DNA of 64,000 nucleotides from Pseudisothecium myosuroides (lineage: Eukaryota; Streptophyta; Bryopsida; Hypnales; Lembophyllaceae). The translations under genes and the position numbers were made by a program. The notes below the pieces were generated by a model, which saw only the letters and a program-made list of their open reading frames with translations, ran no database searches and was not told the origin of the DNA. This document shows, in pieces, positions 31,881-56,189 of this stretch. The first letter of the stretch is position 1. Each line of letters begins with the position of its first letter. The stretch spans positions 2,582,501 to 2,646,500 of the forward strand of contig OX637289.1 in NCBI GenBank assembly GCA_951799445.1. The letters are read 5' to 3'.

Positions 31881-32031
31881 ATGAAAAATTGACCAGTCTA
31901 ATAATAGTAACAGGCGGTTTCTGGGTGCCCGGCCACTTTTGCGTTTCCTGCCATCACCTGACAAGCAACTCCTGCATGCATGGCCTCGGTAGGAGGATTC
32001 ATTCTGCCGAGACCAGAAATCAAGCCTTCAA

Positions 32032-32115
32032 GACTCGTCCGAAGGATGAATCAATTTATGGACTCGTCAGAAGGATGAATTCAGACCCCATGCATATACG
32101 GACTCGTCAGTAGGG
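32032..32115 (+). promoter_or_regulatory. Three repeated promoter-proximal elements
   Basis: GACTCGTCCGAAGGATGAAT (32032-32051), GACTCGTCAGAAGGATGAAT (32061-32080) and GACTCGTCAGTAGGG (32101-32115) lie directly upstream of the TATA box at 32128. Spacings of 29 and 40 bp are compatible with repeated transcription-factor sites. The factor is unknown. Confidence 0.4.
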
Positions 32116-32127
32116 AAAATTTCAAAG

Positions 32128-32135
32128 TATAAAAG
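32128..32135 (+). promoter_or_regulatory. TATA box of the Elongin A gene
   Basis: TATAAAAG lies 308 bp upstream of the ATG, identical in its octamer to the TATA box of the RING-CH gene. A start near 32160 would give a 5' UTR of about 275 bp (inference). Confidence 0.55.
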
Positions 32136-32435
32136 CGAGTCCAGGAAGTGAAGATGGATCACTTAATTCCAGACCTTGGGAGGGATTAGCTGTTTTTGTA
32201 TTCAATACAAGTTCGATACTTTGCCATAACAGGATTAAGTACAGGAGCGATCCTAGTTAGCTAGCTAGCTCTTTAATTGCAATTCAAGTCTTGTAAATCT
32301 TGAGTGGAGCTTGATACTTGCAGCAGTCCCAGACGTTCGTGCGATACCTGAAATTCATCAACTACTGAAACTGCAGACAGTAGAACTTCGGGTTCATCGA
32401 TTGATCGATTGTTTGATTTTCATAATTTCAATTAA

Positions 32436-34188
32436 ATGGCGCTCCCGAGTGCGCTGGAGCAAGTGAGTGAAGAAAGTGCCATCGACCGCATGCATCGTGT
32501 GGGCGACGTTGGGACGACGAACGAGCCTTTGCTGAGGAGACTTCTGCCCCATTGCACGGCGGAGCATCTGGAGTTCATCGAAACGGAGACGGGCAAGAAT
32601 GTATATCAATGCGCTTAACTTGTAGTTAAATTTAACAGTTGAATATATTGAATTGGTTGTTGGTTAGGGTAAATACCATGCTGTAAAAAAAGACTTTCAT
32701 TACTTTTTAACTGTTTAGAAAGGAAGAATAGTGATTTCTAGCTATGCATGGGGCCTGAACGGAACGACTGCATGTATCGCTGGTTGTCTAGATTCAGCTT
32801 GTTCAATCTTCAATTGATTGGTTTTCGTGTGGTTGGTGAGTTGCAGGGAAGAGATTTGACTTCCATTACCGATGAGCTATGGCGGAAACATTATGGCCGA
32901 CGATTTGGAGAGGACAATGCTAATGTCGTTCAGGAGCGGATGGCCAAAAGATGGCCCAAGGTGACGTACAAATGGAGGAGATTGTTCAAGGTACATGAGT
33001 GTTCTGCCATATTTCATTTTCCATGCCAGAGACTATTTGAATTTCTTTGCATTCACTGATCGACTTCACAGATTGTTCCATTGCACACACTTGATTATGC
33101 ATGTAGATCGGAAGCAGGCTTAGTTCATAAATGTTGATGTAGAATGAATGGCACTGTTGATCAGGCCAAAATCATGGAGCAAGAGGAATTGCAAGCTAAG
33201 GGTGTTGATCGTCTGAAAGAGCTCTTCCAACAGCAAAACGCAAGTAAGAACTAGCTGCTGAGTTATTTCACCCGGAACGGCTACTCTTGTGCTAGCTAGG
33301 GCCGGAAATCAATCAGTCAGTAGTATGTATTTGTACATAGCAGATTCAATTCATAGCTTACATAATTAGTCTACAGTTAGAGAGCCGGGGTAGCTAGCCA
33401 GCTCAAAGCATCTAGTTGAGGCATTATTAATTCGAAATTCACACAAGCTTGCTGAATTTCTTGGGCAACAGAGAAAGACAAGAGGAAAATACAAGCCATA
33501 GACAAGATTCCCCCTGAAGGTCGCAAGCGGGCCAAGACGACCATCACTGCTCCAGTCCCTGCAGGTGATATTCCATTCCTGTATCCAGTTCATGATCTTC
33601 TTATTCATTCTTGTTGATGGAAATACTTAATGGCCATGGAGCTTGTTGATGCAAAGACTAGTCCATTTTAATTTCTTGTTTCTCAATGTTGTTCATGCAT
33701 ATCCTCGTTAGCATGTGCAGGACCTGGACGTTCAAGTTCAAAGAAACCTGCAAGTGTGAAGGTGCCACCACCGGAAGCAGGCATGGCCAACAAAGCTGAG
33801 ACTAGTAAAGAAGTCGAGCAGGAGAAGAAACTTGCTAAGCCCGGCGGACCGGAGCGGGGCCGATTGTGGAGGAAGTCCGTGACAGACTATAAGAACATGT
33901 GAGTAAATGAAATCAAGACAGTGAGCGTTAGCTAACCTTAGTTGTGCAATTAATTCATGATTACCAATTGTTCATTAATGTACACAACAATCTGTAAATA
34001 TTTAGTACTAGGTTGTTCTCTTTACGGTGTTTATGACAATGGTATATATGATGGAGTATTTAAAATATATATGACAGGTTTTGAGTACACTATGTCATAC
34101 TCTTTGTGGGTAACACACTGACCTGCTGATCTATTTGACTGCCAGGAAACTGCTATTGAACCCGGTTTGGAAACCCATGAAGAATTGA
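32436..34188 (+). CDS. Elongin A-like protein (RNA polymerase II elongation factor / ubiquitin ligase subunit), six exons
   Basis: The exons are 32436-32600, 32847-32990, 33165-33243, 33472-33564, 33721-33898 and 34146-34188, all with GT-AG introns; joined length is 702 nt, 233 residues. Residues about 6-103 match the Elongin A family (Pfam Elongin_A): a BC-box-like start, then LLPHCTAEHLEFIE and GRDLTSITDELWRKHYGRRF. In animals Elongin A binds Elongin B/C, stimulates Pol II elongation and recruits CUL5-RBX2 to ubiquitylate stalled polymerase. Here the BC box reads ALEQVSEESA, with Ser where the consensus has Cys, so Elongin C binding may be altered. The tail (about 131-233) is basic and low in complexity (KKDKRK, GRKRAK), likely nuclear localisation. 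The last exon codes only 13 residues; AATAAA-like words follow at 34200-34209. Expression is probably driven by the TATA box at 32128. Plant homologues are similarly short. Confidence 0.88.
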
Positions 34189-35002
34189 GCGCATAAAATA
34201 ATAAATAAACGCGGCAGCAATCCAGATTCTAGACGGTAGCTGAGACCTTCCCGAGAAAAAATAAGTGTACTGTACACACACCGATGAACGATTAATTAGC
34301 AAACTTTCAATTCATTTCAGCGGGCTAGCTCCTGATGGGATCAATTTCAGAGGATCAGCGAGAAAAACCATGCTAATGGAGTAGGAGACTAGGGTATATT
34401 CAATTTTGCATCGCCTTATTCATACTCGGTATAAGTTATAGCTTGAGTTTGATTCTTGAGTGAATCATTGGGTTGTGGAGACTCAGATATTGGGTACAAG
34501 AGACCAAACACTTCAGACTGATATATACTCTGTAAGATTGAAGTAATAACTTCAACTCATTATTTTCATACTTAATTGGTAGCAATAAGTTCAATTCACT
34601 ATGTTCATACTTAATCAAGAGCCAATGCTGTTGAAACCAAATTTTGGTCTCAAATGCGGTTTCAAATGGAAGATTGTAGATCAGTACATGTGATGGTAAG
34701 CAACTGCATATTCTGCCCTATTTCCATTTCCATACAAGACTAAGAAGTTGAGCCCTTGCATGCTTCGTTCTGACTTATTCATTCATGAAGAAATCCAATG
34801 TACCAATTACAAGTGTATGAATTGGAGGTTTGCTGAAGCTACTGGAGGATTAGTTTCTTAGTTTGGCAGCACTTGTAGAAATTGGGATGAGTCCCAAAGC
34901 TGTATAAATCAAGTGCTTCCACATTTACTGATATGAAATGCAAACATCCATAACAATATATTGGCATAATCACTATATGGGTACTTTCCAAAATTTAATT
35001 AT
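34189..35002. other. 3' flank of the Elongin A gene
   Basis: A genic-looking stretch to about 34400, including an additional acceptor-like 'ttcatttcag' at 34320, possibly a 3' UTR intron. It then becomes AT-rich. No other gene was seen. Confidence 0.4.
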
Positions 35003-35567
35003 CAATTCTAGTTGTTTCTTCAAATTTTGTGTAGTGTGCAGAGATACAAATTACACAACTAGGACACATCTCAATTAACAACCGCAAATCCAGGATAGCA
35101 AATGCTACAAGTTGGTCTGGTAATGTGAACTTTAAAAAAATCACTGATTGTTGTTTTAAATGTGCATTGTATACCAGCTCGGAGGGTAGATTGTCTTGAG
35201 TTTTTTGATACCTGTACATAGGTCATGAGTCATGACTCATAAAGGTCATTTCTTGATAAAGATCCAATTTCTTGCACAATAACTGATCAAAGTGGATGAG
35301 TGTAATTCAATAGATTAAAGATGCCAGAATTTAGAAGACTTTTTATTTACCATACAAAATATTTCAAAATAGTATAATCCCAAGAATTCAGTATTTACGG
35401 AATGCCGACCGCGACTATTGTCGAGATACAATATAGATTTGTGCGGCCCAGGATAATCAAATATCAATTTTGTTATTACAATGATTTTATCCTAACCAAA
35501 GCATAAAAAAACTTTCAAATATGGATGTAACCAAGCCTTGAGCACAGGAGCACTTTTCATTGCTATC
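35003..35567. repeat. Diverged outer flank of the palindrome, left side
   Basis: Homologous in inverted orientation to 51702-52066 and 52798-52995, but with frequent mismatches and small indels, about 80 percent alike by eye. The right side carries a TIR4 element (52067-52797) that is absent here. Identity switches to complete at 35568. Confidence 0.8.
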
Positions 35568-35703
35568 GGTACTCCGTGTCGGTGTCCTACACGGGTTCAA
35601 GCTAGCTAGTGTGAGTCCTGTTCGAGAATTGGCCACTGGATGGGCTAAGGTCTGATCGAGAAACATCAGTAAGAAAATTGGCTGCAATGTATGAATCCGT
35701 TAA

Positions 35704-36132
35704 CTACATCTTCCACCAGACGAAAATTCCATTGCCGTTGATCACATTGGTTTCCTCATCGAACACGACTTCGTCTCCTGGCCATATATGCAAGGTCTCG
35801 AGTTCTCGGTCCTCCTCTGACGACTGGAAGCTAGCGCAATCCAGCTCCATGCTGTCATCACAACTTGCCTCCACCTCGTCTGCTGCTGGCAAGCGAAGGA
35901 CCAACGCTCCGTGGGGGGCGAAGGTCGGAGCCACTTCGATGTCGTTGCTCAACGGGGTGGCGCACACGGGGCATGGCGGCCTGGCTCGGCCTTTCAAGAA
36001 TCGGTACAAGCAAGGCCAGCAGAAGGAGTGGCCACAAGACGTCTCCACCGGATTGGTCGGAGAGTCCAGTGCGCACAGATTGCACTCCGCGACCTCCGAC
36101 AGCTGATTACAAGCCATACTTCCGAACTCCAT
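35704..36132 (-). CDS. RMA/RNF5-like RING-finger protein, copy 1 (left arm)
   Basis: An intronless 142-residue protein. A C3HC4 RING finger occupies residues 17-57: C17-x2-C20, C33-x-H35, C38-x2-C41, C54-x2-C57, with the core TSCGHSFCWPCL typical of RMA1/RNF5/RNF185 E3 ligases. These normally carry a C-terminal membrane helix and act in ER protein quality control. This protein has no hydrophobic segment; instead residues about 88-112 are acidic and the end is WWKM, so it is probably soluble (inference). After the RING, NDIEVAPTFAPHG occupies the place of the family's VIPLYGRG segment. The ATG is the first in frame and lies at the end of a GC-rich 560-bp 5' region. GC content is far above its surroundings. 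The antisense frame of equal length (35678-36106) is a shadow. Confidence 0.9.
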   Translation of the reverse strand: MEFGSMACNQLSEVAECNLCALDSPTNPVETSCGHSFCWPCLYRFLKGRARPPCPVCATPLSNDIEVAPTFAPHGALVLRLPAADEVEASCDDSMELDCASFQSSEEDRELETLHIWPGDEVVFDEETNVINGNGIFVWWKM

Positions 36133-36750
36133 GATGATTGATCGTGCTCTCCTCCGTACACAGTCCTGTGCACCGGCCCCTTCCAGCTACACTTTTACTC
36201 CCGCTGGCGGCCTCAAGCTCTAACCAAACTACTCACGCTCTAGCTCTAACCAAATGTGGTGCGTACCCAGACACCTGAAAATGATCAATCAAGGTCTGAA
36301 AGTGGAAAGCAGACGAAGTGGAAAATGAGTCTCTGGCATCCCCGCCACGATCTTTAATTAGTGGGGCCATGAGTCCAGGGCCGACTGCCGGTAGTTACTG
36401 GTCTTCAGGCTTCGGTTGCGGAAATTTGGAGTTATTCAATCCTCGGTGGTTGGTGAAAGCCAGCAAGCGAAGATCCTACTTCCGAGCGACTGCTCGAGGC
36501 TCGTAATGACATGGGCTGTCCTGAAGCTCGAAACCTACCGCCGAGGCTTCATCTGGAACGACTTCCTGGACCACGCAAGCCAGACTTGGGCATAACTTCT
36601 GTCCTTCCCCTGCATGTGTTTCAATTCGACTCGAACGGGCTATCCACACCGCTCCACAGTCACAACAGTCGACGACACATCATGGTTTTGAGTAGATAAT
36701 GGCCAAATCGCGGACGGAGGTTTGGTTTGTCGTCGCGCCCGATCCACAGG
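36133..36750 (-). promoter_or_regulatory. GC-rich 5' region of RING copy 1
   Basis: The ~560 bp upstream of the ATG are GC-rich and belong to the triplicated unit up to 36694. A direct repeat TTTGGTTAGAGCT occurs twice close to the gene (51015-51027 and 51041-51053 in the mirrored right arm). No TATA box is visible. On the gene's own strand a stop-bounded frame of about 67 codons (mirror: 50590-50793) lacks an ATG and was not recognised. On the plus strand, ATG at 36699 opens 17 codons before GTAGGC at 36750, a possible first exon of unknown identity. Confidence 0.45.
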
Positions 36751-37208
36751 TAGGCCGGAGGCGGTGGGTAACGGAGTACTGCGTCCTTCCCTTACTACGG
36801 GCTGATCCTATTGCAAGGGAGTGCATGTGACCATATTAATTGTCGTTTTAACTCGGTCTTGGTTTGTACGTAGTATTGTACGTAGTACTGAGCAGTTCGG
36901 CACTTTTGCACTCTGCTAGCTAGAGGCCAGAATGAATGATGCACAAATTGCGTACTCTATGATCATTCGATCAGATATATTGCAGTGTGCTCTTGAGTAT
37001 GCGAACGAAACAAACACTGTAATATCAAGCAAGAGCAGGGATAGCTCGACCCGATGCCCTACTCTATTGAAACCAGAAGTTGTGCATATCATGGTGTGAG
37101 GTTGTTGCCTGTTGGCTTATTTAGTCCTGAGGAGCAAGCTTCGAGTCCATCTTTGAGTACGTGTCACTGAGTTTTTGGTTTGCAGTGCTGGTGTGGCTTC
37201 GGTTGTTC

Positions 37209-37295
37209 ATGGATGACACTAAGATACACAACCCTAGTCTTCTTGCTGTTGTAGCCGTGGCTGTCATATTCAATCCTCTGTTGTGCAAGATTTAG
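37209..37295 (+). pseudogene. Fragment resembling the N-terminus of phosphatidylethanolamine N-methyltransferase
   Basis: After a good acceptor (tttggtttgcag) an in-frame ATG opens 28 codons: MDDTKIHNPSLLAVVAVAVI then FNPLLCKI and a stop. The hydrophobic stretch ending in FNPL resembles the first membrane segment of PEMT-type phospholipid methyltransferases, where a P-S start and FNPL(Y/F)W are common. The rest of the gene is absent, so at most this is an exon relic. The match is short and could be chance. Confidence 0.3.
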
Positions 37296-37640
37296 TTGCT
37301 ATTGGATAAGGGAATTTCCATAGAATTGGCAACTAGTTAGTTCAGTTTAAATGGCAAAGCTAATCCTAATTACAGAGCAATACTAAGTAGTAACTATATC
37401 CTTGCAACTTTGCAAATCCTAGTTATGGGAGGGAAAAATTCTAGTGCAATTCCTTCTTTGCAATTCGAATATTGTCAATGTAATCGAATTCCCTACGTGC
37501 ATTAACATGCAGATGCCTGGCTCGTGGAATTTGGGGTGAATTATGCAGCAAGGCAGGCCTCGAGGATGTCACAGGAAGACAATCAAGAAACAAGTGACCA
37601 GTCAAATTTGTTAAATTGGCATGTTTGACAACAATTATGC

Positions 37641-37750
37641 CAAATTTTGTTAAAATGGTGATATTCCATATGTCATTTTTAGACCGCGCAGTCTAAATTG
37701 TAAAAGTGCCATTTGAGTTGTCAAATGACTACCATTTTAACAAAATTTGC
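37641..37750. mobile_element. GACC-palindrome MITE, 110-bp copy (left arm)
   Basis: Ends CAAATTTTGTTAAAATGGT and its complement, with one internal TAGACC-GCGC-AGTCTA palindrome (37681-37696). Mirror copy at 49519-49628. Confidence 0.65.
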
Positions 37751-37889
37751 CATGAACCCCAAAATTGTGATATTGATGTGCAGATAGGGCTACAAAACAG
37801 CATCCATCTGATGTTTTAGACATTCAAGTACCATTCAAGGTGCCAACTTCTTGAAGGTTTAGGGTTTACTTATATTAGAGTTATCCTAA

Positions 37890-39464
37890 GGGTGATTGCA
37901 TGAAACACTTGTACTATTTTTTATCACACGTCGCGCATTGATTAGTTTTTTGGCCATAATTTTTGAGTTTTGACTCCAAATGATTCAAAATTCATAGAAA
38001 AAGTACTTATGACTATTATACACCTTCCTATTCTTTTGGAGTTTTTTAAAAGAGTTTTACCATTCAATAATAGCCCCCAAATTATGTCACAAATGCCAAT
38101 TTGGAGGTTTTCAGTACTATTTAGTACCCATAAAAATGAATTTGGAGCTGAAATTTGGTAGAAATGGTCTTCTAGTAGACTTGTAGCTATTGCCCAAAGG
38201 AATTCTAAAAACACTTAATTTTATGTGGTGTAGAAGTCCACAAAGTGAGCCCCTTTCTAATTACATTTTGAAACATGTAAAAAATTATTTTGGTGATTTT
38301 TTTGGTGAATGACCATCTCCATAGAGTTGCCACAAATGGCCAATTTTTATTTTTTCTATTTAAGTTTTTTTGATTTTCTACTAATTAAAATATCAAAATG
38401 GGTGATTGCAAGAAACACTTGTACTATTTGTTGCGTTTTGCATTTTGGACTTTTAGTACTTTTTGTACTATGAGTCACCTGCAGTACTATTGAAGGCATG
38501 GAACATAATATTTGAATGGTCAATTGGATTTCAAATTTACTATTCTGACAACATGTGATGTTCATCATTGGATGACAAAAATGGATGGAAATACTTAATT
38601 TGCCATTAAAAAAAATTTACATTGGCAGATAGAAGGTATTACAAGCCCTAGCAGTACTATTGAGTCTTTTTGTATACCCTGAAGTACTATTTTGAGCCAC
38701 ATGCTACAATTTACCCTAGAAAATGAGATTTTCACATTTCTATTTTTGAAAATTAGGAAATGAGTTTGAAAATTTTATTTTAAAAATGGCCATTGTTGCC
38801 AACTAAGAGCAAAGTAGGAAGATCAAAGTTACAACTAAAAAACCATTTTTAATTCAACATAAATTCAACCTGAATATAGCACATTTTAGGCCAATATAAA
38901 ACACACTTAGAAAATGTTTTTGGAAATCCCTCTCCTGAGAAGGTGTATTTCTATTAGAAGAGCTAGCCTACCAAATTTGATGATGTAACTCTTCAAAAAA
39001 GGTACTCGATAGTACTAAAAACTACCAAAGCTGCATGTGTGACATATATTCAAAATTCAGTTTCACCTATTAAATTAATTTTGAAAAATTTGAAAAAATT
39101 AAAGTGCATTTTCTATAGCTATAGGAAGCTTGCTTTTGAATATCATGTTCATTTAATCATTTTTGCAATACTTATGGCACAAAACAACTTTTGCATTGTA
39201 CGTGTGACGGAAAATAGTACAAGTGTTTCTTGCAATCACCCAAATATATATTTTCTTGAGATTTGGGACTTTTCTAGTCCTCCTCTTTAGAGAATTTTGT
39301 AATGCATTTCCTTTGGTGGTTACCTTCATCTTAGAGGTGCAGACATTGGCTATATTTTTTGATTTTCTTAAAAATTGATTTCCTAATTTTAAAGTACTCT
39401 AGAAAAAATCACAGGTACTGCTGCAAAACGCAAAATATAGTACAGGCGTTTTGTGCAAACACCC
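37890..39464. mobile_element. TIR4 element with a second TIR4 nested inside (left arm)
   Basis: The outer element starts GGGTGATTGCATGAAACACT and ends GTGCAAACACCC, with the 4-bp duplication CTAA at 37886-37889 and 39465-39468. Without the nested copy and its duplication it is about 730 bp, the family's full length. Mirror copy at 47805-49379. Confidence 0.85.
38400..39241. mobile_element. Nested TIR4 element (842 bp)
   Basis: GGGTGATTGCAAGAAACACT at the left, AGTGTTTCTTGCAATCACCC at the right, with the duplication AAAT at 38396-38399 and 39242-39245. It interrupts the outer element within its conserved 'aattaaaatatcaaaat' tract. Mirror copy at 48028-48869. Confidence 0.87.
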
Positions 39465-39468
39465 CTAA

Positions 39469-41302
39469 GAATCTTGAAAGTCATCCTGTCTTTGGTTCAT
39501 AGTTTGCTTCTAATCCTAAATTGCATTTTAATTGTTCATGAACTTTTAATTTTTTGAAATAGCAATAAGGTGTGTTTGAATGCAATTCCATCACCTTCAA
39601 TTAGATTGTCTTCTTCCTAAATAAAGCTTTAGCTCCTATCTTCACAAAATAGAGGAACAAAAGTTTTATTGCACTACTTGAGATTCAAATTTGTGATTGA
39701 TTTTCTCATTTTGTAATGAGTTAAAATGGAAATAAGACATTAATTTTTTAACAAATCTATGGAGATGAGATTTTGTTAATGAAATGATATAAGAGTCAAT
39801 ATATGAGTGTTTCTAATTGCCTCAAAATATGCGTATAAAAAGATCCTTCTTTGCACATATTTGGAAAAAAAATAATTTACATTCCCAAGTTGACATAAAG
39901 GTGCTCTATAGTGGATCCAATGGAAGAACTTGCTTTTGAAATTTCTAAGCGAGATTTATTGTTTTGAGTATTCAATAGTCAATAGTCAATAACACTAAAA
40001 CCATGACAACATCAAATCTCTACAAAATAAGAAAATTAACTTTTAAATAGTTTATGATTTATTTTTTGGATTCCAAAGATACAGACTTCTATTGGGTAGT
40101 GCATAATACATTTCTGTCTAATATTATTTTCAAAGACATTGACTCTATACTCAAAAATTTATGTATGTATTATTTTGGATCGACAACATTGGAGTTGGAA
40201 TCACAATACATTTCACAACATAGTACAAATGTTTCATTTTCACCTAAGGATACATAAATTTACATAAAATTATATTTATTGTTAGGCAAAATTCCTTTCC
40301 ATAGACAAATTTGACTAATGAACTCTATATTATTCTAGATGAAAAAATTAATCCAAGAGCATGAAATGACCTCAATTTTGATTATTTAGAATATATATCT
40401 AGATTCTTTCCAATTTGGATAAATAGAAATTAAAAATCAATTAAATATTAAATAAATAAATAAAGATATTCAAATTATATTTTCTTTAGGCCTAAACCAT
40501 TGGGTTCAATTTACAAACAAATTAGTGTAAAATTAAATTTAAAGGAAAAAAATGAATAAAAGGCATTCTAATTTTGCTCTTGTATTCATAAAAAATGAAA
40601 AAAATATCAAAAGAATATTTTGATAGAATAATGGGCAATTTTGTTAAAATGGCGGTATTCCAAGTGCCACTTTGACGGTGTGTCCTTTTCACCATCTTGG
40701 ATAGGTATAGATTTCAAAACGGTCATTTTAAACCATCTAAGACAGGTATAGATTTAGAACAACCGTTCTGAACTGTTTTCTTGCCATTTAAAAAGAATAT
40801 TGCCACTTTAATGAAATGATCCATAATGATAAATAGCGTGATTCATTCAAATATATCAAAGATCTAAATAGTATAAACTATAAGTCCATGGAGTAATCTA
40901 TAGTTAACTAAATATTTCCATTTTCTAAGAAAAATAAACATATTTAATACTAAAAAATATTATTTTATTTATTATTACGGGCCCCGTTGGAAAGGGTGAC
41001 ACTTCCCTCAATGTCAATAACTTTGGGGATATTGCGGGAATGTAGGAACGGTCTTGAGATGGTAATACTTTAGGGTATTTAAATAAGGACTTCACCTTTT
41101 ATATTTTGCAATTTTCAAAGACTCTTTATAATCATGTATTATTTGTCACTTTGATATATTTAAAATTAAAAAATAAAGGACAAAGGTTTAAGCACTCTCC
41201 TTTATATTATTTGCAATTTGCAATGATTCATCCTAAATGAATCATGCAATTTTTGTCTTTTTGAAGAAAATTGGATTTGAAGAAGATTGTGTTTGAAAGA
41301 GA
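39469..41302. other. Left-arm interior without genes
   Basis: AT-rich; holds one GACC-type MITE (40633-40821). The 67-codon frame at 40054-40257 is AT-biased and unrecognised. A GC-leaning island begins near 40978. Confidence 0.4.
40633..40821. mobile_element. GACC-family MITE, 189-bp copy (left arm)
   Basis: The left end 'gcaattttgttaaaatggcg' pairs with 'attgccactttaatgaaat' at the right. The internal 'ggtatagattt' words recall 61390-61400. Mirror copy at 46448-46636. Confidence 0.55.
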
Positions 41303-41830
41303 TTGAATTTTTTTCTTCCTACAAGTTGTCCTTCATCTGTGGTCACCTCTTCGCCATCCACAATCACCTCTTTAGCACCTATTGTTGCCCCTTGCCATTG
41401 CGGTCACTTCTTTGGCACCTATACTAGCCCCCTTGACACCCAAAGTCGCCCTTTTGCCACGTGCACTAGTCCTTTTCCAATTGCATGGGCCCCTTTTATA
41501 CCCACGATCGTCCCACCTACAGTCGCCCTTTCACCTATCCGCACGCGCCCCTACTCGTAGTCACCCATGCTGACGTGGCCCTGGCTTTCCACGCCAATCT
41601 TCAAAGTCAGCTACACTTATGTAAAGACAAATTCATTTATAAAGGTAAAAAGATACAAAACCCTAGAAGCTTATCCAATGGCGATGTCACCCACACTTGA
41701 CACTTGTCATGCACAACATGCAACGTTAGATGGACAACACAATGCCGAGACTCCAAAATGTGCTTTGATAAGACAACCCTAGTCCTAAGCGATCAAAAAA
41801 GGAGAGTCGAATTGATGTTGAACCAAATGT
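41303..41830. other. GC-rich low-complexity tract, possible 5' region of the downstream exon
   Basis: Degenerate 'gtcacctcttt.gcacctat' phrases recur between 41340 and 41550, giving several overlapping Pro/Ser/Thr-rich frames (for example 41303-41560) with no recognisable domain. The segment 41658-41772 is repeated in diverged form in the palindrome spacer at 43047-43160. No gene is called. Confidence 0.35.
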
Positions 41831-42591
41831 TGTAGTGCAAGGCTTAAGCTCCAACACTTTTGTTGTTTGATGGGAGCAGTATTGTGCCCTAGTTGTTTTT
41901 ACAGCGGTTTCTAATGTTGATCAATGTCGGTTGATTCATGGAAACTTGGACTCCGTACTTGATATTAATTCTTGTTTTGCTAAAACTTAAGACTATGGAA
42001 TATCATTCTTGTATCTTATAGTGAAGTTACAAGATGTTATAGGTTGTTTCACGATAACTAAGGTAGTGTGATCTAAAAGCGACCGTGTTCTAAATGTGAC
42101 ACCTATCTAGGAATGAGTGACATGTTGCTTGAAATGTCTATTACTGGCAATAATAAGTTAGGTAAAATTAAATGGTCACTTTAAGAGCAGACTACCTTAG
42201 TTTAAATGTCACATGAACAAGCAAGGTTTGGTTGAATTTTTTTTTGATTTTGACTAGACGATCATGAATGCTGATTGCTTTTACTATTGGCCACCTTGCT
42301 AATTAACAAACTGTCATTCCTTACTTTACTTTACTTCATGTATGTTGATGATTACTTTGCCTTGCTTCCTTAAACGCCAATTTTATTATATTGGCAAGAT
42401 GCAAAGCCCCAAAACTTATGACCTTCAACTACAAAAGCTCCCAAATTTAGGACTATTACAGATTTACATGTGAGGTCCATCATAGAAACTACCAAAGCCA
42501 TGAACTTTTAATAATTTTATAAAATAAACGTTCTTTCCTTTTGTTGACAACGGTATTACTGCTTCAATTGGGTCTTTCCTTGATTTTGCAG

Positions 42592-42858
42592 CATTCTCCA
42601 ACTATGAGAATTGCGGATTTGTACAAGCGTCTCTACTGCTCGGGCCTCGGCTGGCGCTCCAAATACCACAGCGCAGGTCGACATGACATGATCACCCTTG
42701 ACATCGGCAACCCCACCAAACGAGCCTTCGGACTTGCACCGCCAACCACTCGCAAATACAGAGAAGTTGCCAAGGAGAATCAACAACGCAAGGGACCCCC
42801 AAAGGCAATTGACCCTTCCAAGGAGGATCCCATGTTCACTTTTGATCATACCAACTAA
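42592..42858 (+). CDS. Unrecognised basic protein, 3' exon (left arm)
   Basis: A strong acceptor (ttgattttgcag, ending 42591) precedes an open frame HSPTMRIADLYKRLYCSGLG and onward to a stop at 42858. If the ATG at 42604 starts translation the product is 84 residues. It is basic and soluble, with a middle stretch SAGRHDMITLDIGNPTKRAF and a P/K/E-rich end closing in FDHTN. Codon usage and GC are gene-like and unlike the flanks. The 12-bp polypyrimidine-rich acceptor suggests upstream exons that could not be identified. No family was recognised. An identical copy is on the minus strand at 44411-44677. The antisense frame 42556-42849 is a shadow. Confidence 0.5.
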   Translation, partial: HSPTMRIADLYKRLYCSGLGWRSKYHSAGRHDMITLDIGNPTKRAFGLAPPTTRKYREVAKENQQRKGPPKAIDPSKEDPMFTFDHTN

Positions 42859-43041
42859 ACTTTGACTAAAATGAATTGCTAATTATTGCAAGAGGGTGTA
42901 GATTAACTAGTGACTATTACATGACAAGTTGAAAACTTCTATAAATAATCTTACAAAGAAAGTAGTTTCAATCAAGTGTGTGCATGTTCTTAATTTATCT
43001 TTCTAAAACAAATGATTCTATTTCAACTTTGTAAGTTTGAA

Positions 43042-44227
43042 TAAAAAACCCTTAGTCCATACCTGATGGCATTGTCATCCAAACTACACACTTGTCATAT
43101 ACAACATGTGATGTTAGACAAAGAACACGACGCCGGGACCCTAAAATGTTTTTGGCAATTCAAATTTGGTATTGTGCTATTATTTGGCTTATGTAGTGAT
43201 CTAGCAAATGAATTGTTTGTATTGTTTAATAGTAGTATCTAATAGATCTTAGATGATGCGACATGAAGAGTTGCATGAGAATTGACTAAAATATTTTTGA
43301 AAATGATGAGCTCCAATTGTTGCATTTATAAAATGTTGAAGGTTTATATTGTCTTCAATTAACTAAAATATAAACTAAAAGTGTTTGTTTGAGGACCCTC
43401 TCTGAAGTTTAAAAGGATGGTTTAGGGTTAGATTGTACAACTATTATGCTAATATTTGTGATGAAGTGACTTGCAGATTGGTAGATGAATTGTTAAAATT
43501 ATTATGCTGATGTTTCTAATGAAGTGACTTGCAGGGTAGTAGTTGGATTGTTAGCTAAATCTTTAACAATTGTAGCTTGTAGGTTGGTAGATGGATTGTC
43601 ACAATTATTATACTGATGTCGAATAGTTGTAGTTTACAGGGAGTTGGTAGATAGATTGTCACAAATATTAAATTGATGAGTTTGATGTAATGATTTGCAA
43701 GTTAGTAGAACTTTGGATTGTCAACTAAATTGTTTGACGGTTGTAACTTGCAGATTGGTAGATAGATTGTTGCAAATATTATGCTAATGTTTTTTATCAA
43801 GTGACTAACAATCTGGCAAATGGTTTGTTAGCTGAATTGTGAGATAGTTGTAGGTACTAGACCCAAGTGAAGAAAAGATAGGATATCCACATACAAATAA
43901 AATTTATTTTTCTATCAATTGCTAAAGTATTCCTATAACATCATGAAAGATTAAATATTTTGTTCAACATTAAAGATTCTAAAGCAACCACTATATGTTT
44001 GAGTAGTAGTTGTGAACAAAAATATAAAAAAGTGATTATAATAGGGCTATAATATATACTCAACAAACATTCTTGAACCAATTACTTGTTTCTTCAAATT
44101 TGAAAATTTCACAGTTGCCAAATGTTCTGTCTATGCTTTTTCTAATAATCAAAGTGGGCTTTTTGTCTTAAAAAAAAATACAATGTTTTTCAAGCCCTTT
44201 GAATATTTAATAAAAATATTGTCTTTT
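43042..44227. other. Palindrome spacer (1186 bp)
   Basis: Single-copy DNA between the arms. The first ~115 bp are a diverged direct copy of arm sequence 41658-41772. From about 43441 to 43850 lie at least five degenerate units of 60 or 105-110 bp marked by 'attatgctgatgtt', 'gacttgcag' and 'ttggtagatggattgt'. No open frame was found. Confidence 0.75.
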
Positions 44228-44410
44228 TTCAAACTTACAAAGTTGAAATAGAATCATTTGTTTTAGAAAGATAAATTAAGAACATGCACACACTTGATTG
44301 AAACTACTTTCTTTGTAAGATTATTTATAGAAGTTTTCAACTTGTCATGTAATAGTCACTAGTTAATCTACACCCTCTTGCAATAATTAGCAATTCATTT
44401 TAGTCAAAGT

Positions 44411-44677
44411 TTAGTTGGTATGATCAAAAGTGAACATGGGATCCTCCTTGGAAGGGTCAATTGCCTTTGGGGGTCCCTTGCGTTGTTGATTCTCCTTGGC
44501 AACTTCTCTGTATTTGCGAGTGGTTGGCGGTGCAAGTCCGAAGGCTCGTTTGGTGGGGTTGCCGATGTCAAGGGTGATCATGTCATGTCGACCTGCGCTG
44601 TGGTATTTGGAGCGCCAGCCGAGGCCCGAGCAGTAGAGACGCTTGTACAAATCCGCAATTCTCATAGTTGGAGAATG
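44411..44677 (-). CDS. Unrecognised basic protein, 3' exon (right arm)
   Basis: Identical mirror of 42592-42858. The two copies converge on the spacer and point towards each other, with stops 1552 bp apart. Any upstream exons would lie further out in the arm. Confidence 0.5.
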   Translation of the reverse strand, partial: HSPTMRIADLYKRLYCSGLGWRSKYHSAGRHDMITLDIGNPTKRAFGLAPPTTRKYREVAKENQQRKGPPKAIDPSKEDPMFTFDHTN

Positions 44678-45438
44678 CTGCAAAATCAAGGAAAGACCCA
44701 ATTGAAGCAGTAATACCGTTGTCAACAAAAGGAAAGAACGTTTATTTTATAAAATTATTAAAAGTTCATGGCTTTGGTAGTTTCTATGATGGACCTCACA
44801 TGTAAATCTGTAATAGTCCTAAATTTGGGAGCTTTTGTAGTTGAAGGTCATAAGTTTTGGGGCTTTGCATCTTGCCAATATAATAAAATTGGCGTTTAAG
44901 GAAGCAAGGCAAAGTAATCATCAACATACATGAAGTAAAGTAAAGTAAGGAATGACAGTTTGTTAATTAGCAAGGTGGCCAATAGTAAAAGCAATCAGCA
45001 TTCATGATCGTCTAGTCAAAATCAAAAAAAAATTCAACCAAACCTTGCTTGTTCATGTGACATTTAAACTAAGGTAGTCTGCTCTTAAAGTGACCATTTA
45101 ATTTTACCTAACTTATTATTGCCAGTAATAGACATTTCAAGCAACATGTCACTCATTCCTAGATAGGTGTCACATTTAGAACACGGTCGCTTTTAGATCA
45201 CACTACCTTAGTTATCGTGAAACAACCTATAACATCTTGTAACTTCACTATAAGATACAAGAATGATATTCCATAGTCTTAAGTTTTAGCAAAACAAGAA
45301 TTAATATCAAGTACGGAGTCCAAGTTTCCATGAATCAACCGACATTGATCAACATTAGAAACCGCTGTAAAAACAACTAGGGCACAATACTGCTCCCATC
45401 AAACAACAAAAGTGTTGGAGCTTAAGCCTTGCACTACA

Positions 45439-45966
45439 ACATTTGGTTCAACATCAATTCGACTCTCCTTTTTTGATCGCTTAGGACTAGGGTTGTCTTA
45501 TCAAAGCACATTTTGGAGTCTCGGCATTGTGTTGTCCATCTAACGTTGCATGTTGTGCATGACAAGTGTCAAGTGTGGGTGACATCGCCATTGGATAAGC
45601 TTCTAGGGTTTTGTATCTTTTTACCTTTATAAATGAATTTGTCTTTACATAAGTGTAGCTGACTTTGAAGATTGGCGTGGAAAGCCAGGGCCACGTCAGC
45701 ATGGGTGACTACGAGTAGGGGCGCGTGCGGATAGGTGAAAGGGCGACTGTAGGTGGGACGATCGTGGGTATAAAAGGGGCCCATGCAATTGGAAAAGGAC
45801 TAGTGCACGTGGCAAAAGGGCGACTTTGGGTGTCAAGGGGGCTAGTATAGGTGCCAAAGAAGTGACCGCAATGGCAAGGGGCAACAATAGGTGCTAAAGA
45901 GGTGATTGTGGATGGCGAAGAGGTGACCACAGATGAAGGACAACTTGTAGGAAGAAAAAAATTCAA
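45439..45966. other. GC-rich low-complexity tract (right arm)
   Basis: Mirror of 41303-41830; its short Pro/Thr-rich frames on the minus strand are not called. Confidence 0.35.
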
Positions 45967-46447
45967 TCTCTTTCAAACACAATCTTCTTCAAATCCAATT
46001 TTCTTCAAAAAGACAAAAATTGCATGATTCATTTAGGATGAATCATTGCAAATTGCAAATAATATAAAGGAGAGTGCTTAAACCTTTGTCCTTTATTTTT
46101 TAATTTTAAATATATCAAAGTGACAAATAATACATGATTATAAAGAGTCTTTGAAAATTGCAAAATATAAAAGGTGAAGTCCTTATTTAAATACCCTAAA
46201 GTATTACCATCTCAAGACCGTTCCTACATTCCCGCAATATCCCCAAAGTTATTGACATTGAGGGAAGTGTCACCCTTTCCAACGGGGCCCGTAATAATAA
46301 ATAAAATAATATTTTTTAGTATTAAATATGTTTATTTTTCTTAGAAAATGGAAATATTTAGTTAACTATAGATTACTCCATGGACTTATAGTTTATACTA
46401 TTTAGATCTTTGATATATTTGAATGAATCACGCTATTTATCATTATG

Positions 46448-46636
46448 GATCATTTCATTAAAGTGGCAATATTCTTTTTAAATGGCAAGAAAACAGTTCA
46501 GAACGGTTGTTCTAAATCTATACCTGTCTTAGATGGTTTAAAATGACCGTTTTGAAATCTATACCTATCCAAGATGGTGAAAAGGACACACCGTCAAAGT
46601 GGCACTTGGAATACCGCCATTTTAACAAAATTGCCC
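46448..46636. mobile_element. GACC-family MITE (right arm)
   Basis: Mirror of 40633-40821. Confidence 0.55.
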
Positions 46637-47804
46637 ATTATTCTATCAAAATATTCTTTTGATATTTTTTTCATTTTTTATGAATACAAGAGCAAAATTA
46701 GAATGCCTTTTATTCATTTTTTTCCTTTAAATTTAATTTTACACTAATTTGTTTGTAAATTGAACCCAATGGTTTAGGCCTAAAGAAAATATAATTTGAA
46801 TATCTTTATTTATTTATTTAATATTTAATTGATTTTTAATTTCTATTTATCCAAATTGGAAAGAATCTAGATATATATTCTAAATAATCAAAATTGAGGT
46901 CATTTCATGCTCTTGGATTAATTTTTTCATCTAGAATAATATAGAGTTCATTAGTCAAATTTGTCTATGGAAAGGAATTTTGCCTAACAATAAATATAAT
47001 TTTATGTAAATTTATGTATCCTTAGGTGAAAATGAAACATTTGTACTATGTTGTGAAATGTATTGTGATTCCAACTCCAATGTTGTCGATCCAAAATAAT
47101 ACATACATAAATTTTTGAGTATAGAGTCAATGTCTTTGAAAATAATATTAGACAGAAATGTATTATGCACTACCCAATAGAAGTCTGTATCTTTGGAATC
47201 CAAAAAATAAATCATAAACTATTTAAAAGTTAATTTTCTTATTTTGTAGAGATTTGATGTTGTCATGGTTTTAGTGTTATTGACTATTGACTATTGAATA
47301 CTCAAAACAATAAATCTCGCTTAGAAATTTCAAAAGCAAGTTCTTCCATTGGATCCACTATAGAGCACCTTTATGTCAACTTGGGAATGTAAATTATTTT
47401 TTTTCCAAATATGTGCAAAGAAGGATCTTTTTATACGCATATTTTGAGGCAATTAGAAACACTCATATATTGACTCTTATATCATTTCATTAACAAAATC
47501 TCATCTCCATAGATTTGTTAAAAAATTAATGTCTTATTTCCATTTTAACTCATTACAAAATGAGAAAATCAATCACAAATTTGAATCTCAAGTAGTGCAA
47601 TAAAACTTTTGTTCCTCTATTTTGTGAAGATAGGAGCTAAAGCTTTATTTAGGAAGAAGACAATCTAATTGAAGGTGATGGAATTGCATTCAAACACACC
47701 TTATTGCTATTTCAAAAAATTAAAAGTTCATGAACAATTAAAATGCAATTTAGGATTAGAAGCAAACTATGAACCAAAGACAGGATGACTTTCAAGATTC
47801 TTAG

Positions 47805-49379
47805 GGGTGTTTGCACAAAACGCCTGTACTATATTTTGCGTTTTGCAGCAGTACCTGTGATTTTTTCTAGAGTACTTTAAAATTAGGAAATCAATTTTTA
47901 AGAAAATCAAAAAATATAGCCAATGTCTGCACCTCTAAGATGAAGGTAACCACCAAAGGAAATGCATTACAAAATTCTCTAAAGAGGAGGACTAGAAAAG
48001 TCCCAAATCTCAAGAAAATATATATTTGGGTGATTGCAAGAAACACTTGTACTATTTTCCGTCACACGTACAATGCAAAAGTTGTTTTGTGCCATAAGTA
48101 TTGCAAAAATGATTAAATGAACATGATATTCAAAAGCAAGCTTCCTATAGCTATAGAAAATGCACTTTAATTTTTTCAAATTTTTCAAAATTAATTTAAT
48201 AGGTGAAACTGAATTTTGAATATATGTCACACATGCAGCTTTGGTAGTTTTTAGTACTATCGAGTACCTTTTTTGAAGAGTTACATCATCAAATTTGGTA
48301 GGCTAGCTCTTCTAATAGAAATACACCTTCTCAGGAGAGGGATTTCCAAAAACATTTTCTAAGTGTGTTTTATATTGGCCTAAAATGTGCTATATTCAGG
48401 TTGAATTTATGTTGAATTAAAAATGGTTTTTTAGTTGTAACTTTGATCTTCCTACTTTGCTCTTAGTTGGCAACAATGGCCATTTTTAAAATAAAATTTT
48501 CAAACTCATTTCCTAATTTTCAAAAATAGAAATGTGAAAATCTCATTTTCTAGGGTAAATTGTAGCATGTGGCTCAAAATAGTACTTCAGGGTATACAAA
48601 AAGACTCAATAGTACTGCTAGGGCTTGTAATACCTTCTATCTGCCAATGTAAATTTTTTTTAATGGCAAATTAAGTATTTCCATCCATTTTTGTCATCCA
48701 ATGATGAACATCACATGTTGTCAGAATAGTAAATTTGAAATCCAATTGACCATTCAAATATTATGTTCCATGCCTTCAATAGTACTGCAGGTGACTCATA
48801 GTACAAAAAGTACTAAAAGTCCAAAATGCAAAACGCAACAAATAGTACAAGTGTTTCTTGCAATCACCCATTTTGATATTTTAATTAGTAGAAAATCAAA
48901 AAAACTTAAATAGAAAAAATAAAAATTGGCCATTTGTGGCAACTCTATGGAGATGGTCATTCACCAAAAAAATCACCAAAATAATTTTTTACATGTTTCA
49001 AAATGTAATTAGAAAGGGGCTCACTTTGTGGACTTCTACACCACATAAAATTAAGTGTTTTTAGAATTCCTTTGGGCAATAGCTACAAGTCTACTAGAAG
49101 ACCATTTCTACCAAATTTCAGCTCCAAATTCATTTTTATGGGTACTAAATAGTACTGAAAACCTCCAAATTGGCATTTGTGACATAATTTGGGGGCTATT
49201 ATTGAATGGTAAAACTCTTTTAAAAAACTCCAAAAGAATAGGAAGGTGTATAATAGTCATAAGTACTTTTTCTATGAATTTTGAATCATTTGGAGTCAAA
49301 ACTCAAAAATTATGGCCAAAAAACTAATCAATGCGCGACGTGTGATAAAAAATAGTACAAGTGTTTCATGCAATCACCC
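47805..49379. mobile_element. TIR4 element with nested TIR4 (right arm)
   Basis: Mirror of 37890-39464; the nested copy occupies 48028-48869. That both insertions are shared exactly means they predate the last copying between the arms. Confidence 0.85.
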
Positions 49380-49518
49380 TTAGGATAACTCTAATATAAG
49401 TAAACCCTAAACCTTCAAGAAGTTGGCACCTTGAATGGTACTTGAATGTCTAAAACATCAGATGGATGCTGTTTTGTAGCCCTATCTGCACATCAATATC
49501 ACAATTTTGGGGTTCATG

Positions 49519-49628
49519 GCAAATTTTGTTAAAATGGTAGTCATTTGACAACTCAAATGGCACTTTTACAATTTAGACTGCGCGGTCTAAAAATGACATA
49601 TGGAATATCACCATTTTAACAAAATTTG
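49519..49628. mobile_element. GACC-palindrome MITE (right arm)
   Basis: Mirror of 37641-37750. Confidence 0.65.
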
Positions 49629-49973
49629 GCATAATTGTTGTCAAACATGCCAATTTAACAAATTTGACTGGTCACTTGTTTCTTGATTGTCTTCCTGTGA
49701 CATCCTCGAGGCCTGCCTTGCTGCATAATTCACCCCAAATTCCACGAGCCAGGCATCTGCATGTTAATGCACGTAGGGAATTCGATTACATTGACAATAT
49801 TCGAATTGCAAAGAAGGAATTGCACTAGAATTTTTCCCTCCCATAACTAGGATTTGCAAAGTTGCAAGGATATAGTTACTACTTAGTATTGCTCTGTAAT
49901 TAGGATTAGCTTTGCCATTTAAACTGAACTAACTAGTTGCCAATTCTATGGAAATTCCCTTATCCAATAGCAA

Positions 49974-50060
49974 CTAAATCTTGCACAACAGAGGATTGAA
50001 TATGACAGCCACGGCTACAACAGCAAGAAGACTAGGGTTGTGTATCTTAGTGTCATCCAT
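49974..50060 (-). pseudogene. PEMT-like N-terminal fragment (right arm)
   Basis: Mirror of 37209-37295, same sequence and same doubts. Confidence 0.3.
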
Positions 50061-51136
50061 GAACAACCGAAGCCACACCAGCACTGCAAACCAAAAACTC
50101 AGTGACACGTACTCAAAGATGGACTCGAAGCTTGCTCCTCAGGACTAAATAAGCCAACAGGCAACAACCTCACACCATGATATGCACAACTTCTGGTTTC
50201 AATAGAGTAGGGCATCGGGTCGAGCTATCCCTGCTCTTGCTTGATATTACAGTGTTTGTTTCGTTCGCATACTCAAGAGCACACTGCAATATATCTGATC
50301 GAATGATCATAGAGTACGCAATTTGTGCATCATTCATTCTGGCCTCTAGCTAGCAGAGTGCAAAAGTGCCGAACTGCTCAGTACTACGTACAATACTACG
50401 TACAAACCAAGACCGAGTTAAAACGACAATTAATATGGTCACATGCACTCCCTTGCAATAGGATCAGCCCGTAGTAAGGGAAGGACGCAGTACTCCGTTA
50501 CCCACCGCCTCCGGCCTACCTGTGGATCGGGCGCGACGACAAACCAAACCTCCGTCCGCGATTTGGCCATTATCTACTCAAAACCATGATGTGTCGTCGA
50601 CTGTTGTGACTGTGGAGCGGTGTGGATAGCCCGTTCGAGTCGAATTGAAACACATGCAGGGGAAGGACAGAAGTTATGCCCAAGTCTGGCTTGCGTGGTC
50701 CAGGAAGTCGTTCCAGATGAAGCCTCGGCGGTAGGTTTCGAGCTTCAGGACAGCCCATGTCATTACGAGCCTCGAGCAGTCGCTCGGAAGTAGGATCTTC
50801 GCTTGCTGGCTTTCACCAACCACCGAGGATTGAATAACTCCAAATTTCCGCAACCGAAGCCTGAAGACCAGTAACTACCGGCAGTCGGCCCTGGACTCAT
50901 GGCCCCACTAATTAAAGATCGTGGCGGGGATGCCAGAGACTCATTTTCCACTTCGTCTGCTTTCCACTTTCAGACCTTGATTGATCATTTTCAGGTGTCT
51001 GGGTACGCACCACATTTGGTTAGAGCTAGAGCGTGAGTAGTTTGGTTAGAGCTTGAGGCCGCCAGCGGGAGTAAAAGTGTAGCTGGAAGGGGCCGGTGCA
51101 CAGGACTGTGTACGGAGGAGAGCACGATCAATCATC

Positions 51137-51565
51137 ATGGAGTTCGGAAGTATGGCTTGTAATCAGCTGTCGGAGGTCGCGGAGTGCAATCTGTGCGCAC
51201 TGGACTCTCCGACCAATCCGGTGGAGACGTCTTGTGGCCACTCCTTCTGCTGGCCTTGCTTGTACCGATTCTTGAAAGGCCGAGCCAGGCCGCCATGCCC
51301 CGTGTGCGCCACCCCGTTGAGCAACGACATCGAAGTGGCTCCGACCTTCGCCCCCCACGGAGCGTTGGTCCTTCGCTTGCCAGCAGCAGACGAGGTGGAG
51401 GCAAGTTGTGATGACAGCATGGAGCTGGATTGCGCTAGCTTCCAGTCGTCAGAGGAGGACCGAGAACTCGAGACCTTGCATATATGGCCAGGAGACGAAG
51501 TCGTGTTCGATGAGGAAACCAATGTGATCAACGGCAATGGAATTTTCGTCTGGTGGAAGATGTAG
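51137..51565 (+). CDS. RMA/RNF5-like RING-finger protein, copy 2 (right arm)
   Basis: Identical to copy 1 in all 142 residues and in its 5' region; read outward from the palindrome centre, divergently from copy 1. Immediately 3' of the stop, the sequence up to 51701 is shared by all three copies, and 51702-51877 only by this copy and copy 3. The copy is intact, so there is no sign of relaxed selection in any of the three. Confidence 0.9.
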   Translation: MEFGSMACNQLSEVAECNLCALDSPTNPVETSCGHSFCWPCLYRFLKGRARPPCPVCATPLSNDIEVAPTFAPHGALVLRLPAADEVEASCDDSMELDCASFQSSEEDRELETLHIWPGDEVVFDEETNVINGNGIFVWWKM

Positions 51566-51701
51566 TTAACGGATTCATACATTGCAGCCAATTTTCTTAC
51601 TGATGTTTCTCGATCAGACCTTAGCCCATCCAGTGGCCAATTCTCGAACAGGACTCACACTAGCTAGCTTGAACCCGTGTAGGACACCGACACGGAGTAC
51701 C

Positions 51702-52066
51702 AATAGCAGTGAAAAGAGTGCTCCTGTGCACAAGGCACAGTTACACCCATATTTGAAGGTTTTTGCATGCTCAGGATAAAATCATTGTAATGATCGATAA
51801 AAGTGAATCCTGAATTTCTTGGGTCGCAAAAATGTATGTTATATCCCGTAGTCGGGGTCAGCGAACACCGGAATTTTTGAAATTACGTTTATTTTAAAAA
51901 TTCCTGGAAAAATTATGTATGGTAAATAATAAATCTTCTATTTTGAGGCATCTATATTCTATTGAATCACTCTGATCCACTTCAATTAGTTATTCAGCAA
52001 GAATTGGATCTTTATCAAGTAATTACCTTTATGAGTCATGTCCTTTGTTATGAAGTTCAAGACAAT
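51702..52066. repeat. Diverged outer flank of the palindrome, right side
   Basis: Its reverse complement aligns with 35225-35567 at roughly 80 percent by eye. The first 176 bp are instead identical to 58637-58812. The homology resumes at 52798-52995 after a TIR4 insertion. Confidence 0.75.
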
Positions 52067-52797
52067 AGGTCAATGCAAGAAACACCTCTCGATTTTGTTG
52101 CGTTTTTACAGTACTCATGATTTTTCTTCTGGAGTACTATAAAATTAGAAAAATGATTTAAAATAAAAATAAAAATATGGATAACGTATATACCTTTAAG
52201 ATGAAGGTAACCACCAAAGGAAATGCATAGAAAATTTCTTTAAGCTAGAGAACTAAAAAAGTGTCAAATCTCAAGAAAATGGATACTTTGATGTATAAAT
52301 TAGTTAAAAATAGTAAACAAAAGTAAATACATAAAATGAAAATTGGCCATTTGTAACAACTCTATGGGGATGGTCATTCACCCAAAAAATCTCTTAAATA
52401 ATATTTTATATGTTTCAAAATGTAAGCAGAAAAAAGCGCACTTTTTAGACTTCCACACCGCATATAAATAATTATTTTTAGAATTCCTTCCTTGCAAAGC
52501 TACAAGTCTACTAGAAGACCATGCCTTCCAAATTTCAGCTCGAAATTCATTTTTTTGGTTACTAAATAGTACTAAAAAACTCTAAATTAGCAAGTGTGAC
52601 ATATAATTGGGGGCTATTTTAGGACAGTAAAACATTTTTGAAAATTACAAAAAATTAGGCAAGGAGTATAATAGCCATGAGTACCTTGCCTTTAAATCTT
52701 GAGTCATTTGGAGTGAGAACGCAAAAGTTATAGCCAAAAAACTAATCAAAATGCAAGGTGTGACGCAAAATAGTACAGGTGTTTCTTGCATTCACCC
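52067..52797. mobile_element. TIR4 element, full length (731 bp)
   Basis: Starts AGGTCAATGCAAGAAACACC and ends GGTGTTTCTTGCATTCACCC. The duplication CAAT is at 52063-52066 and 52798-52801. The left palindrome flank shows the empty site ('gacaatctaccctcc' in reverse orientation near 35190-35205). Confidence 0.88.
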
Positions 52798-53230
52798 CAA
52801 TCTATCCTCATACTTGTGTATAATATATGCACTTTTTAGACAAGATACAGTGATATTTTTTAAGTTCACATTACTTATTCCATTGTGTCTAGAGCTACCT
52901 TTAGCTTGTGCCATCGTGGATTTTGCAGTTATTAATTGAGATGTGTCTTCATTGTGAAATTTTGGATCTCTATACCCAACAAAGAAGGGTATTTTTATCA
53001 TTCTAAATCTTCATTATTATTTTAGCTTTTGACATTATCAAGTGTTTAATTTATAATAATTACTTTCAAAATTAAATATTTGATGATAAATCATTTGTCC
53101 TAGTTGTTGCTACAACTCTATTAGCATAATTAATACAGAACCCTAGCCCTTTTTCATAACAATTATGTAATTTATACAAGCCCTATGTAGTTTTTTAATA
53201 CTCCATTTCATTCCAATTCCTTTTGTTTAA

Positions 53231-54151
53231 TCCCTAAAGGACCAGCTTGCTATTTTTAGCCACATAGCAATTTTGAACACGTGTTTGTGACTAGAGTTTT
53301 GCATATTTTAGGCCAAAATTGTAATAAAAGGTGGAGATGAAGAATATCTTTTGTATGCACTAAATTTCATGCCACTTGAAAATAGGAGTCAAAAGTTATG
53401 GCCTAAAGTTATTTTTTTTGGTAAATGGGCAATATGGGCAAATTAGAAAAAGTCACTTTTTTCCAAAACAAAAATTTTAAATTGATTTTTTAGATTTATA
53501 AACGTGGAAAGCTTTGAATCATTCCATTTCAATCAATTAGTCAAAAGTTATGAGGAATTTTAGTTTGAAGGCAATTATAGATTTTCAAGTCTAAAATAAA
53601 CTTTGAAGGCGTTTATTTCACTCAATTTTCAATATTCTAGAAAAAAATAAAATTATAGGATGTAGATCGTTACTACAACATTACAACGATTGAGATTGGC
53701 ATTTTTCAATTCCATTTAATTAACTTCTTAACAATTTAGTATTTTGAACTATTTTCTACTTCTTTCTACTTACTATTTTTTTTCTATATATTGTACTAAT
53801 CCAAATGATCTGAAATTTTTCAAGCATGTAGCCAACTTGCCATGAAGAATGAATCCAAAGAGTAACCACCATTTTGGATATTTTTTCATACTAATGTGAC
53901 CTTGTAAAGTGCAACTGCCTAGTTTTTCGCAGGCCCATAAAATGCACTTGTGTCATTTTGAATGCTAATATCTTGCAATCCACATGGTAAGAAAATTTGA
54001 AATTTTTTCTACATCTTTTTAAACCAACTTACTACAAGATCCTACATTTATATGTGTCCAAAAATGTTTTTTTTCCCAAATTTGGTACTTGTACTCAAAA
54101 TGGCAATTTTTGAACGTTTCAGGCGAAAATATAGTCAACAAACTTAAGGGG
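53231..54151. mobile_element. piggyBac-like TIR element (PBL-C), 921 bp
   Basis: Flanked by TTAA at 53227-53230 and 54152-54155; starts TCCCTAAAGGACC and ends TTAAGGGG. The empty site in block A is the single TTAA at 20902-20905 ('tttgTTTAAATTAC'). The interior is only distantly like PBL-A; it shares text with the broken copy inside the composite element (25691 onward). No transposase. Confidence 0.85.
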
Positions 54152-55183
54152 TTAAATTACAAAGAAAGTCTCATATAGTGTAGACCTTTTAAGCTCATGA
54201 CACCACATATAATTGTTTTATTTATAAATTATTTAAATATCTCATACTTATAAAGTGAAGATATGTTGAATAGTTTGTTTTTTTTCATGATTTTTTTATT
54301 TAAATCCATTTATTATTATTCCATCATTTTTTTTGGTATTCATGAATGCACTTGCATTCATAATGTTACAAGTCAATATTTTATTGGTTATAAAAATATT
54401 TGACATTTATAAATCAAAATTGAAGATAAAATTGACATATTTTAAAGAAATCTTTGTTTTTTAATTTTTTCCTTCCTATAAGTTTAGAGAACTTGCATTC
54501 AAATTGTCACATGTCATTATTCAATATTATATTGGTTGATTATGTAGATTAACTTAGCCTAATTAAGTAAAAAGGATGTTGAATTATAAGATTTATTCTT
54601 TCATTTTTTCTACTAAATTTAGGTGAAAATTATTTGAAGCCTAATATCTTCTGTCGGATCTGTCCCATAGGTTGAAACTCCAAGAAACATGTTGTTTGCA
54701 CACACATCCTTGCCAAGGACTTTATTATAGTACCAAACAAGCTCCCATTCATTTGACAACTATGGAGATCCCAATTGGAAAAGGGAAAAACTGAAAGAGT
54801 ACAAAAATTAAAAATTGAACTCTCATAGTATAGTTTATTACTATTAGTTCAACTTTATGATATATGAACTTGCAAAATTCCATGCCAAATTGTCCACTTG
54901 CTTGACTACTTAACTCTACATCAAATCTAAAGAGTAAAATATAAAATGATGTAATTTTAAATTGATAAAAGATAAATAAAAAAATAAGACATGGATACAT
55001 GGTGGAGAGGCCTACAAAAAGTTATTAGTCCCAATGCTAAATCATTATTATTTTTTATTCTCAATATATTTGTGAATTTAGAGGAAAGACTTAAGATTGT
55101 TGGGAAGTTCATATTCAAATAGACTTTGAGTTATTTGTGAGTCCATTTTATTTTTTAAGAATTTTATAAAAGTAGATTTTTCC

Positions 55184-56181: not shown

Positions 56182-56189
56182 CTATTTAG

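Follow-up and report, generated by a model that had tools for sequence, protein, structure and literature searches.

A gene-bearing palindrome with exact arms and outer edges inside older inverted homology

The palindromes of the primate X and Y chromosomes are sex-linked, much larger than the 7.5-kb palindrome described here and conserved over millions of years. Among plants, the closest case found in the parts of the literature consulted is that of the willow W chromosome, where the palindrome W.P1 of Salix purpurea is reported to span 42.7 kb with a 2.6-kb spacer, the four arms being >99% identical on average (PMC7023750). In the moss Physcomitrella, the highly similar genes of tandem arrays are described as probably converting one another (PMC3045890), and in yeast template switching is reported to homogenise short inverted repeats (PMC8604942). 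For perfect palindromes it is usually hard to tell the newly made from the old and maintained. In the locus presented here, older flanks and an exact third copy preserve the tract edges, so that the genome of one relative and a few long reads could separate origin from maintenance.

The window analysed is a 64-kb stretch of AT-rich DNA, written in A, C, G and T only, in which introns are apparently short; together with the kinds of gene present, this may point to a land plant, perhaps a bryophyte. An earlier note had claimed a seemingly perfect 7.47-kb palindrome within it and had proposed aligning the arms base by base. Compared in this way, the left arm (35568-43041, plus strand) and the reverse complement of the right arm (44228-51701, minus strand) show 0 mismatches over 7,474 bp, with a coordinate sum of 87269 that is constant along both arms; the palindrome is exact in the sequence as given. 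When single mismatches are allowed the arms run from 35553 to 43045 and from 44224 to 51716, their inner ends lying past one mismatch, and the non-palindromic centre shrinks from 1,186 bp to 1,178 bp (43046-44223). This spacer contains degenerate internal repeats and an 84-bp match, at 76%, to positions 41678-41761 of the arm, and both inner arm-spacer junctions sit at A-rich runs. With arms of very high identity, a unique spacer and a gene as cargo, the locus has the form of a sex-chromosome-type palindrome. The earlier note tied such palindromes to non-recombining or sex-linked regions, with arm-to-arm gene conversion preserving their genes; nothing within the window supports such a location.

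Exact inverted repeats of at least 60 bp number only two in the window, the palindrome itself (7,474 bp) and a 1,303-bp pair (50575-51877 and 58637-59939), and exact direct repeats of that length measure 1,127 bp (left arm and third RING copy), 132 bp and 73 bp. All exact repeats longer than 132 bp are tied to the RING gene. A separate family of ~0.94-kb repeats lies at 569-1505, 13122-14064 and 21320-22238, two copies being 94% identical and the third, inverted, 84%. No tRNA genes were found in the window, and no Rfam family matched it at the gathering score.

The palindrome was also said to bear genes, and a RING gene is indeed present in each arm, near the outer end and pointing outward. 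Copy A (35704-36132, minus strand) is an open reading frame of 142 codons and a stop, and copy B (51137-51565, plus strand) is its identical mirror. The identification of this cargo holds, the translation matching Pfam zf-C3HC4 at E=3.8e-7, above the curated cut-off. One candidate family is that of the RMA/RNF5-type membrane-anchored RING E3 ligases, whose C3HC4 RING domain the protein carries; the zf-C3HC4 match is not specific to the RMA subfamily. Members of this type are expected to have a C-terminal membrane anchor; by eye, no long hydrophobic run was seen in the 142-aa translation. Against solved sequences the protein gave 59 distinct matches at E<=0.01 with the BRCA1 RING at the top, and in a large protein set 19 word-sharing candidates yielded 0 homologues at E<=1e-3. 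ORF162, a male-specific, multicopy gene of the Marchantia Y (V) chromosome and apparently a RING gene, offers a parallel, with no link claimed. One paper names ORF162 as unique to the V chromosome.

A second cargo, described earlier as an unrecognised exon, gained no Pfam support, since a six-frame search of 35001-44230 at E<=0.01 returned RING families alone. The six-frame scans covered 7501-12400, 30901-44230 and 52001-62000, the right arm being a duplicate of the left. Elsewhere they gave a RING-variant (RINGv) domain at 9446-9604 (plus strand, E=1.5e-8) and a weak Elongin A match at 32850-32990 (plus strand, E=1.1e-4), whose 23.1 bits fall below the curated cut-off of 29.8. The latter lies immediately to the left of the palindrome, where the DNA is richer in GC, and could be one exon of a split gene. 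The protein search gave no candidate for the frame at 33672-33899, which resembles an exon. As a possible signature of GC-biased conversion we considered the third positions of the RING frame, which are 70% GC; other exon pieces, with ends set by eye, range from 48 to 68%, and the value is not distinctive.

The nested transposons attributed to the arms were recovered as elements with terminal inverted repeats (TIRs). In the left arm an inner element (38400-39241, flanked by AAAT) lies inside an outer one (37890-39464, flanked by CTAA), the 4-bp duplications being read from the edges, and the right arm holds their reverse-complement copies at 47805-49379 (inner element 48028-48869). A further TIR element occupies 52067-52797 in the right flank, where CAAT borders it at either end; the left flank has no such element. 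These three insertions with 4-bp flanking duplications belong to a non-autonomous family with ends like GGGTGATTGCAAGAAACAC, and further family ends lie near 20406, 20815, 55274, 57268, 58006 and 58153, the pair at 20406 and 20815 having no 4-bp flanking duplication.

Outside the arms the two flanks are diverged homologues of each other, in inverted orientation. The left outer flank (35025-35567, plus strand) matches the right (51702-52986, minus strand) at 75% over 350 columns (35231-35566 against 52040-51703) and, past the TIR element that interrupts the right flank, again at 70% over 189 columns (35025-35193 against 52986-52798). As the homology continues beyond an insertion present on the right only, the flanks are old inverted copies that predate it. 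Identity falls within ~20 bases outside the arm, where 13 of the first 15 bases agree and gaps and mismatches follow, so the exact tract gives way from 0% to ~25% difference at its outer edge, inside the older homology. Inspection of the arm edges by eye and in the flank alignment revealed neither terminal repeats nor target duplications. The arms do not behave as a composite transposon or other mobile element, because their edges fall inside continuous diverged homology and the TIR elements lie inside an arm or wholly in a flank.

This outer edge bears on two further explanations. The palindrome could be an assembly artefact, in which the assembler used a single sequence in two places or a consensus erased the differences between diverged copies; zero differences in both 7,474 and 1,303 bp is what such an error would give. 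We consider it improbable, as the outer flanks differ, the spacer is unique, a false overlap is unlikely to end in ~25% diverged sequence, and other repeats in the window have kept their differences (of the 80 best self-alignments listed, none outside the RING-linked set exceeds 94% identity). Alternatively, a broken end might have folded back on itself and been copied, leaving the spacer as the loop. The spacer is short relative to the arms and the A-rich inner junctions would suit such an event, but a fold-back should leave an arbitrary outer edge, and the actual one falls within older sequence that is homologous, in inverted orientation, to the same flank; this makes such an origin very improbable.

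The third RING copy, C, places a second exact tract beside the palindrome. It extends over 1,303 bp (58637-59939, plus strand), an exact inverted match to 50575-51877, and contains a RING frame (58949-59377, minus strand) identical to those of A and B; one exact RING gene thus occurs in three copies, despite the wide difference between the flanks of A and B. The tract comprises part of the right arm together with 176 bp of right flank beyond the palindrome edge, and the exact match ends at 58636. C and B do not differ within these 176 bp, whereas the left flank of A matches at 135 of 191 columns. Over the next 21 columns, past the end of the tract, agreement is 18/21 with the left flank and 13/21 with the right; with so few columns, this is only suggestive of a switch in C to a left-like flank. 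Farther out the flank of C turns repeat-like, 58007-58611 matching 28204-28779.

Beyond the other end of C (59939) the matches are short and weak. Two, in the same orientation as the arm, fall in 60235-60302 (54 bp at 78% and 69 bp at 72%), a 64% match over 107 columns joins two RING domains, and the tblastx matches have E=0.002 or worse; some old homology past the inner edge of C is possible. A short motif near 60235-60302 recurs at several places, including 61332-61380, and resembles a dispersed repeat. One more RING domain (60401-60532, plus strand; zf-C3HC4_3, E=3.5e-8) lies ~0.5 kb past C and, being on the opposite strand, appears to form a head-to-head pair with it.

In both exact tracts, the edge on the 3' side of the gene falls within older, diverged homology, the pattern looked for in ectopic conversion, at 35567/51702 in the palindrome and at 58636 in copy C. 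Clear flanking homology is found on that side only. Beyond the other edges (43046 and 59940) there is little or none, to the sensitivity of blastn and tblastx in this window: a sensitive blastn search (E<=0.01) of the spacer found nothing left of an original left RING copy, and next to the inner ends of the arms the spacer has no visible diverged inverted homology.

These edges also bear on a palindrome of greater age. The locus might be a long-standing palindrome, 8 kb or more in length, whose arms are kept alike by repeated arm-to-arm conversion, as on the mammalian Y and the willow W, only the outer ~0.5 kb having escaped. The flanks, old homologues in inverted orientation, adjoin the arms without a break, and the TIR insertion on the right is later than the duplication of the flanks, both as this history would have it. 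It would, however, need a complete and recent homogenisation of 7.5 kb that left no residual difference, the spacer lacks visible diverged inverted homology next to the arms, and copying at this locus goes beyond the two arms, as is evident from the exact third copy. We regard this history as unlikely, while granting it some weight.

The reading we prefer, with modest confidence, is that old dispersed RING copies were recently overwritten by homology-primed copying, that is, by ectopic gene conversion resembling break-induced replication (BIR) or synthesis-dependent strand annealing (SDSA), and that the 7.5-kb tract so made is the palindrome. The earlier proposal of homogenisation by copying gains support from the jump from 0% to ~25% within older homology and from the exact third copy. 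At the start, a short RING-finger gene would have been present at several dispersed places in the window, as old copies with 3' flanks ~25% diverged. Repair or replication may then have been primed in one copy, at the 3' end common to the copies, and have run on into another copy and replaced it. In one tract the gene and ~0.56 kb of upstream DNA would have been copied to give C; in the other, 7.5 kb would have been copied through the gene, the upstream DNA and the nested transposons up to the spacer, to give the perfect palindrome. In each case a broken or stalled copy would invade a relative by its 3' flank, copy inward for a variable length and then be joined without homology. The layout that the two tracts share, one edge in diverged 3' homology and the other with little or none, is the footprint expected of one-sided copying, as in synthesis-dependent and break-induced repair. 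On this footprint we infer that a process of the SDSA or BIR type made the exact tracts, although 7.5 kb is long for gene conversion, which counts against the copying reading.

The right arm is weakly favoured as the donor, the right-hand copy being the simplest source because C carries its flank; an alternative order, from left to right and then from right to C, also fits. The copying was probably recent. Zero differences in 7,474 bp set a 95% upper bound of ~4e-4 on arm divergence and, at a plant rate of 7e-9 per site per year, the arm copying would be less than about 30,000 years old, provided the assembly kept true differences. One recent event of this kind explains the zero divergence of the arms without long-term maintenance. 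More tentatively, and with some doubt, we suggest that one-sided copying repeatedly enters the RING family at its shared 3' end, overwrites the gene and exits by end joining after a variable length (1.3 kb in C, 7.5 kb in the left arm). Were this so, a single step would turn old inverted paralogues into perfect gene-bearing palindromes, ahead of any arm-to-arm conversion and with no sex chromosome needed. If one-step copying itself is true, dispersed inverted paralogues can give rise to gene-bearing palindromes with no sex chromosome involved. Among the titles and abstract openings listed in the literature searches, none describes a perfect palindrome seeded by dispersed paralogues.

The locus is of a known kind, a gene-bearing inverted repeat homogenised by copying, to which it adds preserved tract edges and a third copy. 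Like the primate X and Y palindromes (for which see PMC8981503) it has near-identical, gene-bearing arms around a unique spacer, but the 7.5-kb palindrome shows none of their size, age or sex linkage. It resembles W.P1 and W.P2 of Salix purpurea in being a plant palindrome with genes and a short spacer, and conversion is described as inferred in Salix too; those palindromes, however, are larger, four-armed, female-specific and conserved with a sister species, whereas the arms here are exact and 7.5 kb long (PMC7023750). With the tandem arrays reported from Physcomitrella it shares near-identical local gene copies put down to conversion, but here the copies lie in inverted orientation and the tract runs to kilobases (PMC3045890). 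Template switching as described in yeast likewise evens out the arms of inverted repeats, but of short ones, where the tract here measures kilobases (PMC8604942).
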